Shown: positions 31,779 to 36,840 of the stretch, one piece after another
How the letters are laid out: each line of letters starts with the position of its first letter
Position numbering within the stretch: position 1 is the first letter of the stretch
From: Gammaproteobacteria bacterium
Lineage (GTDB): Bacteria; Pseudomonadota; Gammaproteobacteria; JAADGQ01
Reading direction: 5' to 3'
Assembly: GCA_013152295.1 (NCBI GenBank)
Contig: JAADGQ010000150.1
Coordinates: 1 to 38,791 of the forward strand
Length of the DNA: 38,791 nucleotides
The notes under the pieces: generated by a model
What the model saw: the letters and a program-made list of their open reading frames with translations, nothing else
What the model was told of the DNA's origin: nothing
Database searches by the model: none
Program-made: the position numbers and the translations under genes

Positions 31779-34700
31779 ATGCAGCTACTCAGAGGTATCG
31801 TCACCGCCAGCAAGGTGATCGACAAAGATTTGCTCAAAGATCTGGATCCGCTCAATATGCTGGGTCCAGAAAAAATCAGCGAAATCACCCACAACAGCAG
31901 TATCGAACAGCTCTCAGCGGGTGTCGTGCTCTTCACTAAAGGGGAGCGCGATCAGCAGGCGGTCTACCTGTTGTCGGGACAGGTTGAACTGAGCGCCGAC
32001 AATAATCCCCCTCTCATCGTCAAGGCTGGTTCGAAGATGGCCCGCCAGCCACTGGTCCATCACCAGCCCCGTCAAGTTACCGCAAAAGCGCTTACCAAGG
32101 TTTCGGTGTTGCGCATCGATTCCGAACTGCTGGATGCGTTACTCAGCTGGAATCCATCATCTGCCTACGAAGTTAGTGATATTGAGCAGGTTGATGATGG
32201 CGACTGGATGACGGTATTGCTGCAATCCCCTCTCTTTCAGCGCCTGCCTGCCAAAAATATTCAAGCTGTGCTGACACGCATGGAGACGCGTGCAGTGCGC
32301 GCCGGAGACAAGATCGTCACACAGGGCGGTTTTGATGACTACTATCATGTTGTGAAGCAGGGTCGTTGTGCGGTGACGCGCAAACATCCGCAGCATGGCA
32401 ATGAGGTCAAACTGGCGGAAATTGGCATCGGACAAGGGTTTGGCGAAGAGGCGCTGCTGAGCGGTGGCGCAAAAAATGCCAGCGTGACGATGATGGTCGA
32501 TGGTGCAGTGATGTCCCTGAACAAGCAGGACTTTACGCGGCTGCTTGCCGAACCATTGATGAATTTTGTCTCTTTTGACGAGATGCGCGGTCGGTTGGCG
32601 CGAGGCAATATGCTGATCGACGTGAGGGAGGCTGACGAATTCAACCAAGCGGCCATTCGAGGTGCTGTTGATGTTCCTCTCTCGCTGCTGCGCCTGAAGT
32701 CCAAGGACCTCTCTCCCAAAAAGGGTTACATCGTCTACTCGGATAAAGAGCAGCGTAGCGCTGCCGGGGCGTTTCTGCTCGCGCAGCAAAATCTCAATGT
32801 CTTTATTTTACGCGGTGGTCTGCGCGGTGCGCCCGCTGATGAGATCGACAGCAATTCGGATAAGCAGGAGATCGTAGAGGGTAGCGCGCAGGAGAGTAGC
32901 GCTGCGCTGGATGATTCGCCACAAAAACAGGCAGAGAGAGCGGCTGCGCGGCAACGTGTCGAGGAGGAGACGGTGCGCGCACGCGCTGCCGAGCAGGAGC
33001 GCGATCAGGCACAGGGCGAGATTGCGCGGCTCAATGCCGAGCTTGAAGCGGCACGACAACAGGCAGAGGCTGCAAAAAAATCCAACGCGGCTGAGGTTGC
33101 CGCGCGTGAACAACAGCAAGCGGTTCACCAAGAGACAGAAAAGCGCCACTCCGATGAACAGAGTGCAGCACTAAAACAGGCTGCTGAAGCGGCACAACAG
33201 CGCGCCGACGAAGAGATCGCGCGCATGAAGGCGGAGCTGGAAGCTGCGCAAATACAAGCCGAAGAGGAGGTGCGCAGAGCGGCAGAGCTTGATGCGGCCC
33301 GGCATAAGGCACAGCAAGACGTGCTGAAGATCAAGAAGCTCGCTCAGTCTCATTTTGCGCGGGAGTCAAAAAAGCAGGAAGAGGAGGAGCAGCGCCGCAA
33401 ACAGGAGCTGGAGGAGACCAAAAAGCAGGCGGAGGCCGAGATTGAGCAGATCAAAATCGATCTTGAACAGGCACGGCAGCGCGCGGAATCTGAAGCGCTG
33501 AAGGCGGAGGAGCAAGAGGCAGAGCGGCGCAGAGTTGAAGAGGAGGCCGCCAGGAAAATAGAGCAAGAGCACGCACGCATTCAGCAGGAGATCGAGCAGC
33601 GCGAAGCTGCAGAGGCGCAACGGGCAGAGCAGGCACGGTTGGCAGCGGAGCGCGAAATTGAGCGTACGCGCGCAGAGCTGGAAGAGGCGCGCCGCAAGAC
33701 CGAGGAGGAGAATCGCAAGTTTGCCGAAGCTGAGGCGGCGCGCATCAAGTCCGAACAGGAGGCGGCCCGTATTCGCGAGCAGGCGTTGGCACAGCAGCAA
33801 GAGGAGATCGCAGCCAAGCAGCGCAAAGTCGAAGAGGAGGCACGTCGCGCCGAGGAGGCGGAACAGGCTCGCTTGAAGGCGGAGCAGGAAGCGGCAGAGC
33901 TGGCAGCCTCTCTTGAGGTAGCGCGCCAACAGGCTCAGCAACAGGCCGAACAGCAGGCACAAAAGTACGCGGCAACCCAGGCTGCGCTGAAAGAGGCTGA
34001 GGCGCGTGCGGCCCAGTCCCAGGCGGATGAGCAGGCGCGGCAGGAGGAGCTGCGCCTGCGTGAAGTTGCCCACGAAGCGGAGCAGCTGAGAATCGCCGAG
34101 CAGACCCAACAGCAGGCAGAGCAAGCGATCGAAGGCATGAAGGCGGAGCTGGAGGCCGCGCGCCTGAAAACGCAGCAGGAGAGCCGTAAAGTTGCTGAAG
34201 CCGAAGCGGTGCGCCTTGCTGAGCAAGAGGAGGCCGCACGAGTTCGCGAACAGGCACAAGCGCAGAGCGCAGCGCAGATCGAGGCCAGCCAGCTCAAAAT
34301 AGCGCAAGAGGCTGAGCGCGCCAAACTTGCTGAAGAGGCGCGGCTTCAGGCCGAAGAGGAGGCCCGAGCGCTTAAAGAGTCTCTGCAAGTCGCTGAGCAA
34401 AAGGCAGTGCAGGAGAGCAGCAAGGTTGCCGAAACCAAGGCTGCCATTAAACAGGCGCAGATTGATGCCGATGCTGCTCGGCAGCTGCTGCTGGAGAAAC
34501 AGGAGGAGGAGCGTCGTCGTCAGCAAGAGACCGATGCGCAGCGCTGGCAAGCGGCCGAAGAGGCGCGGCAGCAAGCAGAAGCTGAAATTGAGCAGATGCA
34601 GGCAGCGCTAAAGATCGCCAATGAGCGCATTGAAGAAGAGGCCCAGCGCAGCGCCGAAATGGAGGCGGCCCGACAGAAGGCGGACGAGGAGGCGCTACGC

Positions 34701-36389
34701 GCCAAAGAGCAGGAGCGTGCCGAGTTTGAGGCGCAGATCGAGACGGCGAAACGTAAAGCTGACGAGACAACCGAAACGGCGCGCATGGCTAACGGTGCTC
34801 ACCAGCAGGCGATGGAACAGATCGCTCGCTTGCAGGCTGACTTGGGGGCAGTGCAGCAGCGCTCTGCTCAAGAGGCGGATGAGCTTGCTGAGGTTGAGGC
34901 GGCGCAAGAGGTATCTAAAGCCAAGGCGGATGCGCGGGAACAAAAGAAGGTAGCGGCAGCGGAAAAGCTGCACCAGCAGACACTGCAAAAAATAGCGTTA
35001 ATGGAGCAGGAGCTTAACGCTGCCCAGCAAGCCTGTGAGCTTAATAACGCTAAATTTCTTGCAGCTGAAAAGGCGCGCTTGACCGCCGAGCGTGAGCGCG
35101 CTCATGTTGACGAAGAGAGTCAGGCACGGCAACAGGCCGATATTGAGCTGGCCCAGTTGAGAGCAGAGGAGGAGTCGGAACGTGCTCGCATTGCTGAGCA
35201 GGAGCGCCAAAAAGCAGAAGAGGAGATCAAGCAGTTGAAGGCGCTGCTGGCGCAGCGAGAGGCTGGTGACAGCGCGACAAAAAAACGGGCCAATACTCCG
35301 TCGTACGACTCGTGGTTGGGTGATGACGACAGTGATCCCTTTAACTTGATGGCGTCTGCCGCCTTTGAGGGTGTTGACTCTGAACAGATCAAGGAGCATG
35401 TGGATGTGCTCGCCTCGAAGGTGGATCGTGAGCAGCGTAAACAGGCTGAGGCGGAGGCTGCCCGCATTGTCGCCGAAGAGGAGGCCGAGCGGATTCGCCA
35501 GGAGCTGAGCACGGCACGAGCGCGCAAAAAAGAGGTTGTCGCAAAAAAAACTCAAATTGAGGGGGTAAATGCTGCCAATATTGATCTGGTATGGGAGACA
35601 TCGTCAGATTATTGGGGCTGTCCTGCAACAACCGGTACAGCGGCAGAGAAAGGCATAACCCGTGAAAGGGCCACTGCGAATGGCAGCCACATTGAAATGC
35701 AATCCGCAGAGCAGTTTGCAGAGCTGCCAACGGCTGCTGAGCAACAGCAGCCTGTTGTTGCTGATGCGGGAGCAGCACCGCGCAAAAAAAGCAGTGCTGC
35801 GTGGATTGGGCTCGGCGTTGCTGGGTTGGTATTGGCGGTGGCTGGCTATCTCTATACCTCTGGGCTTCTGCTAGAGCCGACAGAGAACGGGGTGCCACCC
35901 GCGTCGATACCATTAGTGACGCCATCAGTCAGTGCTGTTTCGCCCCCTGCCGTTGAAGAGAGGTTATCTCCCCCAGCCACAAAAGTAGACGATGGTGAAG
36001 AGTCATTGGCGAACGCTGCTGTGGTACGCGCCGCCAGAAAACGGGTCACCGCAGAGGCGGAGCGTGCTCACCAGCATCTGCTACTGAGCCAGCAAAAAAA
36101 GGCAGCGGTAACCGTTGAGACAGAGAGCCTGGCTACGTTGCCCACACCGGAAAGCGCGCCTCAATTTGTCTCTAAACCTGCACCGAAAGCGCAACTCAAG
36201 CCTGAACTGGCTCTGCCGCCGCCGCGACAAGCAACGCAGGCTCCCGCCAAGGGAGCGCGTCGTTTGAGTGTCGACGATCACACGTTAGAGCAGGTGCTGA
36301 AGGCTGAGCGTACTTGGGAGGAGGATGATCCCGATACTGCCGAGAGGAGCGCCAAAGTGATTAACAAACTGATTGATAACCAATTTTGA
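31779..36389 (+). CDS. Giant membrane protein: cNMP-binding-like + rhodanese-like domains + long coiled coil
   Basis: A 1536-residue protein. Domains in order: a degenerate cNMP-binding-like domain (about 35-125, VVLFTKGERDQQAVYLLSGQ); a second one (about 146-255) with FGEEALLSGG in the phosphate-binding cassette but AKNAS where PRTA/S with Arg is usual; and a rhodanese-like domain (about 262-350, LIDVREADEFNQAAIRGA) with Ser321 (VYSDKEQRS) in place of the catalytic Cys. A coiled coil rich in Ala, Glu, Gln and Arg runs from about 380 to 1160. An acidic patch (YDSWLGDDDSDPFNLM, near 1180), a second short coil, one membrane helix (about 1340-1362, WIGLGVAGLVLAVAGYLY) and a Pro-rich tail complete it. 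Lys/Arg before the helix puts the N-terminal part in the cytosol and the tail in the periplasm. The cNMP-plus-rhodanese pair is known in shorter proteins. The function of this one is not recognised. Confidence 0.85.
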   Translation: MQLLRGIVTASKVIDKDLLKDLDPLNMLGPEKISEITHNSSIEQLSAGVVLFTKGERDQQAVYLLSGQVELSADNNPPLIVKAGSKMARQPLVHHQPRQVTAKALTKVSVLRIDSELLDALLSWNPSSAYEVSDIEQVDDGDWMTVLLQSPLFQRLPAKNIQAVLTRMETRAVRAGDKIVTQGGFDDYYHVVKQGRCAVTRKHPQHGNEVKLAEIGIGQGFGEEALLSGGAKNASVTMMVDGAVMSLNKQDFTRLLAEPLMNFVSFDEMRGRLARGNMLIDVREADEFNQAAIRGAVDVPLSLLRLKSKDLSPKKGYIVYSDKEQRSAAGAFLLAQQNLNVFILRGGLRGAPADEIDSNSDKQEIVEGSAQESSAALDDSPQKQAERAAARQRVEEETVRARAAEQERDQAQGEIARLNAELEAARQQAEAAKKSNAAEVAAREQQQAVHQETEKRHSDEQSAALKQAAEAAQQRADEEIARMKAELEAAQIQAEEEVRRAAELDAARHKAQQDVLKIKKLAQSHFARESKKQEEEEQRRKQELEETKKQAEAEIEQIKIDLEQARQRAESEALKAEEQEAERRRVEEEAARKIEQEHARIQQEIEQREAAEAQRAEQARLAAEREIERTRAELEEARRKTEEENRKFAEAEAARIKSEQEAARIREQALAQQQEEIAAKQRKVEEEARRAEEAEQARLKAEQEAAELAASLEVARQQAQQQAEQQAQKYAATQAALKEAEARAAQSQADEQARQEELRLREVAHEAEQLRIAEQTQQQAEQAIEGMKAELEAARLKTQQESRKVAEAEAVRLAEQEEAARVREQAQAQSAAQIEASQLKIAQEAERAKLAEEARLQAEEEARALKESLQVAEQKAVQESSKVAETKAAIKQAQIDADAARQLLLEKQEEERRRQQETDAQRWQAAEEARQQAEAEIEQMQAALKIANERIEEEAQRSAEMEAARQKADEEALRAKEQERAEFEAQIETAKRKADETTETARMANGAHQQAMEQIARLQADLGAVQQRSAQEADELAEVEAAQEVSKAKADAREQKKVAAAEKLHQQTLQKIALMEQELNAAQQACELNNAKFLAAEKARLTAERERAHVDEESQARQQADIELAQLRAEEESERARIAEQERQKAEEEIKQLKALLAQREAGDSATKKRANTPSYDSWLGDDDSDPFNLMASAAFEGVDSEQIKEHVDVLASKVDREQRKQAEAEAARIVAEEEAERIRQELSTARARKKEVVAKKTQIEGVNAANIDLVWETSSDYWGCPATTGTAAEKGITRERATANGSHIEMQSAEQFAELPTAAEQQQPVVADAGAAPRKKSSAAWIGLGVAGLVLAVAGYLYTSGLLLEPTENGVPPASIPLVTPSVSAVSPPAVEERLSPPATKVDDGEESLANAAVVRAARKRVTAEAERAHQHLLLSQQKKAAVTVETESLATLPTPESAPQFVSKPAPKAQLKPELALPPPRQATQAPAKGARRLSVDDHTLEQVLKAERTWEEDDPDTAERSAKVINKLIDNQF

Positions 36390-36405: not shown

Positions 36406-36840
36406 CTAATTGGTGTCATCCGCTGTTGGTTTTTCTGCCTCAACATATTGAAAAATACTGGCTTTCAGTGGCACGCCTGACTCATCCACAACATAGGCTG
36501 TCCATTTGCCCAGCATGCGTGGGTCAAGACGTTTGCTGGAGTGAATTCGCCAGCGCGGCCCTTCGACAGAGAAACTGATATCTGCAATGACTGCGCCATC
36601 GTACTCCCAGCGGTGGTGTATCGTCTGTCCGTCGAGAAAGCGCAGATCGGTGAAGAAATAGATCTGCTCAACATCGTTGCCTAATACGGCGATCTCATCA
36701 ACAGGCTCCCGGTTTTCTACGGCACTGGTAAACAGGGCTCGGGCTACGTAGCCCTCTTGGGTGGTGGGCTCTGCCGCAACGGTGCTGACAAAGCAGCATG
36801 TCAACATGCCCCACAGTGGCACGCTCAGGTGTCTCATCAT
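36406..36840 (-). CDS. DUF2914 secreted protein
   Basis: A 144-residue protein with a signal peptide (MMRHLSVPLWGMLTCCFVST, cut after VAA). A DUF2914 domain follows: ARALFTSAVENREPVDEIA, IYFFTDLRFLDGQTIHHRWE, GPRWRIHSSKRLDP, GKWTAYVVDESGVPL. The family is found in periplasmic or surface proteins of proteobacteria. It has no established role and a beta-rich fold is likely. Its stop lies 16 bp from the stop of the giant coiled-coil gene on the other strand. The periplasmic location matches that protein's C-terminal tail, but a link is only a guess. Confidence 0.85.
   Translation of the reverse strand: MMRHLSVPLWGMLTCCFVSTVAAEPTTQEGYVARALFTSAVENREPVDEIAVLGNDVEQIYFFTDLRFLDGQTIHHRWEYDGAVIADISFSVEGPRWRIHSSKRLDPRMLGKWTAYVVDESGVPLKASIFQYVEAEKPTADDTN

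Follow-up and report, generated by a model that had tools for sequence, protein, structure and literature searches.

A very long helix rich in Ala, Glu, Lys, Arg and Gln, with many salt bridges and one transmembrane (TM) anchor, is found in TolA domain II and in single-alpha-helix domains, and in TolA this helix is periplasmic. Tandem cNMP-binding (CNB) domains are found in the PKA regulatory subunit (PKA-R) and in PKG. The trypanosomatid PKA-R has lost the Arg of its phosphate-binding cassette and binds a non-cyclic nucleoside, a specificity for which the Ala202 position must also be Glu (PMC10959531). The protein considered here, P0001, shares the tandem CNB arrangement with PKA-R and PKG, and domain 2 of most of its relatives carries the cassette FGE-x-A...R-x-A, but no kinase or kinase-inhibitor segment was seen in P0001, and its CNB pair, with the cassette Arg missing, is fused to a rhodanese-like domain, a helix and a TM segment. 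It has the fold and the conserved Asp-Val-Arg and Arg-Ser motifs of rhodanese-like domains (PF00581), but Ser321 takes the place of the catalytic Cys and the domain is placed after the CNB pair. The helix is similar to TolA domain II in composition, salt bridges and TM anchor, but is placed N-terminally, on the side predicted to be cytosolic. Helix-TM relatives with an FGE-like domain (PF03781) have the same N-terminal module, long helix and single TM helix, but their coils show strong heptads and P0001 carries no FGE-like domain.

P0001 is encoded by an uninterrupted 1536-aa ORF with an ATG start at 31779-36389 (including the stop), on the forward strand of the window, the 38,791-nucleotide gammaproteobacterial contig that was analysed; related frames occur in other genomes, and the ORF is as described in the first-pass annotation of this DNA. 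Its order is cNMP-cNMP-rhodanese, a proline-free helical stretch of 787 residues, a single TM helix and a tail rich in Pro. CNB domain 1 spans residues about 30-122 (31866-32144; Pfam, alignment, AlphaFold2), CNB domain 2 has its Pfam core at residues 171-257 (32289-32549; the same evidence and Foldseek) and the rhodanese-like domain occupies residues 267-349 (32577-32825; Pfam, AlphaFold2). Pfam assigned the two cNMP_binding stretches with an E-value of 2.1e-21 and the rhodanese with 5.8e-12, and phmmer against the PDB matched PKG and PKA-R chains. An AlphaFold2 model of residues 1-355, built on a 4-sequence alignment, showed two beta-barrel CNB folds and an alpha/beta rhodanese fold (pLDDT 75.6), and its top Foldseek matches were PKG/PKA-R tandem CNB pairs (E about 1e-17), with low global TM-scores, so that the relative placement of the domains was not reproduced. 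The domains that had been proposed for this head are confirmed.

Residue states were read from 68 aligned modules. The cassette of CNB domain 2 has Glu in 68/68, Ala in 62/68 and Arg in 64/68; P0001 keeps Glu223 and Ala225 and has Lys232 (codon 32472-32474) in place of the Arg. In CNB domain 1 a Pro-Arg pair is present in 63 of the 68, including P0001 (Pro97-Arg98), and the FGE Glu is absent from P0001 and from all 68 modules. Neither CNB domain of P0001 therefore has both cassette residues, domain 1 offering only Arg98 and domain 2 only Glu223, and the earlier statement that the cassette Arg is missing applies to domain 2 and not to domain 1. At the catalytic position of the rhodanese, 57 modules have Cys and 11 have Ser, and Ser321 (codon 32739-32741) in P0001 is as had been noted; the protein lacks the catalytic Cys expected of an active rhodanese (sulphurtransferase). 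Eight of the 11 Ser-bearing modules fall in the 14-member clade of P0001, and most members of this clade retain the cassette Arg. Judged by alignment, a canonical cyclic-phosphate site is present in most members of the module family, which as a whole seems capable of binding cyclic nucleotides and possibly of sulphur transfer. Since the cassette Arg and the rhodanese Cys persist in most relatives, the degeneration is specific to P0001 and its close kin, and the earlier suggestion that the protein binds something other than cAMP could hold for these proteins but not for the family.

One form of that suggestion is that the ligand of the CNB sites is a non-cyclic nucleoside or another nucleotide, as in the trypanosomatid PKA-R. 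The Arg is lost in P0001 and in its sister paralogue C149, which has Gly at this position, and the Foldseek matches of the head include trypanosome PKA-R nucleoside complexes. However, the Glu that trypanosome specificity requires at the Ala202 position (PMC10959531) is the canonical Ala225 in P0001, and we regard nucleoside binding as improbable.

The helical stretch, residues 386-1172 (32934-35294; composition, AlphaFold2, repeats), contains 0 Pro, 5 Gly, 24% Ala, 40% charged residues and 13.9% ILVMF. Its heptad score is z 5.3 against local shuffles with 16% of windows strong, whereas leucine-rich family members reach z 12-27 with 56-65% of windows strong. Opposite-charge pairs are enriched (z 5.2 at i+4, 7.5 at i+3) and like-charge pairs depleted (z -5.9), which is the charge-pair pattern of a single alpha helix domain. 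Weak heptads and few large hydrophobic residues favour a single or loosely paired helix, and the P0001 helix appears charge-stabilised, resembling TolA or a single alpha helix more closely than it does a coiled coil. Of the coiled coil of about 800 residues proposed earlier, the long Pro-free helical stretch stands and the coiled-coil character is borne out in part. For its proposed length of over 100 nm, 787 x 0.15 nm = 118 nm is an upper bound; single-sequence AlphaFold2 gave helices of 313, 152, 137, 116 and 63 residues at a pLDDT of only about 50-75, with four low-confidence breaks near 694-722, 875-888, 1026-1045 and 1162-1200. The stretch also contains diverged internal repeats at shifts of 147-157 residues, with up to 35/60 identity and a best score of 169, where 40 block shuffles reached no more than 96; no tandem array was found for them at the DNA level. 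A cytoskeletal filament or polar organiser would suit the large size and long helix of P0001 and the leucine-rich coils of other family members, but not its own weak heptads and low content of large hydrophobic residues, and this reading seems very improbable.

Beyond the helix lie an aromatic/acidic patch, SYDSWLGDDDSDPFNL (residues 1175-1190; 35301-35348), and the motif VWETSSDYWGCP (residues 1271-1282; 35589-35624), which is common to the C113 paralogue and its relatives in the genomes G001 and G002. The YWGCP motif was considered as a family-wide feature and rejected, having been seen only in family f1. The single TM helix, residues 1340-1359 (35796-35855), is predicted by hydropathy and was not resolved by AlphaFold; Lys and Arg on its N side would place the N-terminus inside by the positive-inside rule, a prediction from hydropathy and charge. 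The tail, residues 1360-1536 (35856-36386), is Pro-rich, predicted to be periplasmic and, unlike that of many relatives, lacks an FGE-like domain after the TM helix. These predicted features agree with the single membrane helix and Pro-rich tail that had been described, and together with the helix, Lys232 and Ser321 they support a long, membrane-anchored, putatively cytoplasmic spacer with altered sensory residues. A possible helix motif in the tail, RVTAEAERAHQHLLLSQQ (residues 1422-1439; 36042-36095), weakly resembles the tails of relatives and was equalled in 8/2000 shuffles, but segments of the coil score equally high; a periplasmic RVxxEAE helix motif was rejected, as it showed no excess over the helical background.

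P0001 is a member of an undescribed, widespread gammaproteobacterial family defined by the cNMP-cNMP-rhodanese N-terminal module; it has both CNB domains and the rhodanese in order and aligns over about 350 aa. The module was found in 157/369 sampled genomes of the class at E<1e-50 (67/143 at E<1e-30 in a smaller sample), and outside the class only module frames of about 370 aa were seen, in 4 genomes. Four classes of architecture occur: stand-alone modules (about 355 aa), modules with a soluble helix (about 700-850 aa, without a TM helix and often paired as neighbours), helix-TM-FGE-like proteins reaching 1984 aa, and helix-TM proteins that lack FGE, to which P0001 belongs. About 20 proteins of more than 950 aa begin with these domains in the same order and continue into a long helix, most of them with a TM helix, and the domain order and size are thus not unique to P0001. 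The first-pass annotation had named no described protein of this order and size, and none was found here: the module is absent as a named unit from Pfam and NCBIfam, and we found no paper describing the combination, although many subscription papers were not covered and this absence is weak evidence. Other arrangements seen include a PP2C phosphatase domain between the rhodanese and the coil of a protein that also has an FGE-like domain (L061:5779-10986), and adjacent pairs of module-helix proteins of 700-1270 aa without a TM helix (L057, L065, L074, L080, L085), possible hetero-partners.

The window's genome holds further copies of the module, in C149 (551 aa, 51% identical), C113 (700 aa, 42%) and C89; the last (L010:3799-4837) is split over two overlapping frames, either a frameshift or an assembly error. 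A CNB-like domain fused to an HDOD-like domain was also seen by eye in this genome (L011:5926-7230). In an IQ-TREE phylogeny of 67 modules P0001 and the C149 paralogue form a pair (100/97) nested in a clade of 14 rows (95/99) whose proteins measure 480-1614 aa; it is made up of helix-TM proteins without FGE and five members without a TM helix predicted by hydropathy, which count against a membrane tether as the common plan. Sequence and a HAD-hydrolase neighbour present in both identify the C113 paralogue as the orthologue of proteins of 480-482 aa in G001, a genome of the same family as the window's organism, and in G002. These short orthologues carry VWE-x-ASDYWGCP and no long helix, which marks the helix as an expandable insert; over the family its length runs from none (L066, 482 aa) to about 800 residues.

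Such freedom of length also suits a purely structural spacer or scaffold, in which the module is a protein-binding head, the helix a ruler, and no small molecule is sensed in the branch of P0001. Lys232 and Ser321, the Ser at the rhodanese position in 8/14 clade members and the Gly of the C149 paralogue all point the same way. Retention of the cassette Glu and Ala by P0001, whose Lys could still pair with phosphate, and of the Arg by most of its clade argues against it, and as a complete account we find it somewhat unlikely.

Convergent with P0001, its stop 16 nt from that of P0001, lies a gene for a 144-aa DUF2914 protein (36406-36840, reverse strand), with an N-terminal hydrophobic segment resembling a signal peptide; its product is probably secreted. 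A convergent DUF2914 gene is also found 37-100 nt downstream of the module gene in L053, L112, L114, L115, L125 and L130, making 7 loci in 5 families with the window, and DUF2914 itself occurs in 99/369 genomes of the class; nothing useful on it was found in the literature. Convergent neighbours are not co-transcribed, which counts against coupling. In a second tree, of 30 sequences, the DUF2914-linked members were scattered over several branches and the deeper position of P0001 was not resolved.

Six relatives from 2 families (L051, L053, L112-L115) lie beside all or part of a TPR-ExbB-ExbD-ExbD-TonB cluster, beside an FHA-class III cyclase, or both. ExbB-ExbD-ExbD-TonB_C is on the upstream side in L053, L113, L114 and L115, with a TPR gene matched before ExbB in L053, L113 and L114; L112 keeps TonB at the contig end, and only the downstream side of L051 is visible. 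Downstream are DUF2914 (absent from L051 and L113), TerB, NERD, a small protein, the FHA-class III cyclase and DUF2786, with some loci missing genes. The FHA-class III cyclase was found in 14 genomes, all of them module-positive against a background of 157/369 (hypergeometric 4.5e-6; about 0.003 counted by family). Class III cyclases lie near module genes at 9/81 loci where about 1 is expected, but six of the nine are one syntenic cluster and so reflect few independent events; this enrichment was not retained as an independent signal. At L093:6961-9180 a gene for a class III cyclase, which by eye looks CHASE2-like, converges on a stand-alone module gene 18 nt away. The ExbB/ExbD/TonB cluster is also present in G001 and G002, which have only the short module protein, and the link may therefore be one of synteny rather than function.

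The window's genome has its TPR-ExbB-ExbD-ExbD-TonB cluster on a different contig, unlinked to P0001, and of the genes clustered in relatives only DUF2914 adjoins P0001. A class I cyclase is present, the sole class III cyclase (about 776 aa) adjoins a CNB-domain gene, and no FHA cyclase was found in this MAG, which is 92% complete. P0001 might then be a decaying orphan that has lost its sites and its cluster and is drifting, but an intact frame of 1536 codons, a TM helix and YWGCP motif common to its paralogue and the conserved DUF2914 neighbour make decay highly improbable.

The upstream PfkB was rejected as a conserved partner: it had clustered with a ketohexokinase-like PfkB found downstream of FGE-class genes, and at only 25% identity the two are not the same gene. 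The window's PfkB and DAGK turn up again close to a module gene at L079 and L117, as neighbourhood synteny. Between pfkB and P0001 (31700-31745) is a strong stem-loop, CCGATTAAGTAGGGGGTATCCCCCCACTTAATTCGG, of about -25.6 kcal/mol and without a clear T run, a possible terminator or attenuator. By eye, an FGE-class gene precedes a ketohexokinase-like PfkB gene and, in most cases, one for a Rieske-like ferredoxin in L047, L050, L056 and L058, and a stand-alone module lies directly upstream of an aroE-like gene at 7 loci (L067, L096, L100-L104), several of which also have amtB-/glnK-like genes upstream. A Cas9-like gene was seen by eye near a module gene in genome G120 (L084:1579-4626). An anti-phage defence reading of P0001 was dropped, as PADLOC matched it to no defence model.

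The reading that we tentatively favour, as a serious candidate, is a tether that is anchored in the membrane, responds to cNMP and is coupled to an envelope machine, with P0001 as a derived version whose neighbours are dispersed and whose residues are altered. Judging from relatives, the tandem-CNB module would read a cyclic nucleotide produced by a cyclase of class III or class I. The helix, whose length varies freely, would serve as a spacer or reach arm, the one TM helix would tether this long charged helix to the inner membrane with the short tail in the periplasm, and TM helix and tail would relay the state of the module to, or keep it near, an envelope complex with DUF2914 as one component and perhaps the ExbB-ExbD-TonB machine as another. 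A more specific version is a new system in which the FHA-class III cyclase supplies cNMP to the CNB-CNB-rhodanese tether, which controls or positions a dedicated TPR-ExbB-ExbD-ExbD-TonB machine and the periplasmic DUF2914, the window's organism having a remodelled form; taken with all its parts, this is unlikely. As its cassette Arg and rhodanese Cys are replaced and the cyclase and TonB genes are unlinked to it, P0001 is probably a scaffold for binding or a pseudo-sensor, and for this one protein we rate such a role about as likely as sensing.

No description of a tether linking cyclic nucleotides to a TonB-type machine was found in the literature. If the neighbourhood reading is true, cyclic-nucleotide signalling would be physically tethered to a proton-motive-force-driven TonB-type envelope machine, and DUF2914 would gain a functional lead. 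Regardless of that reading, some 40% of the genomes sampled from the class carry a large family of proteins with helical arms of variable length that is unnamed as a unit in annotation libraries.
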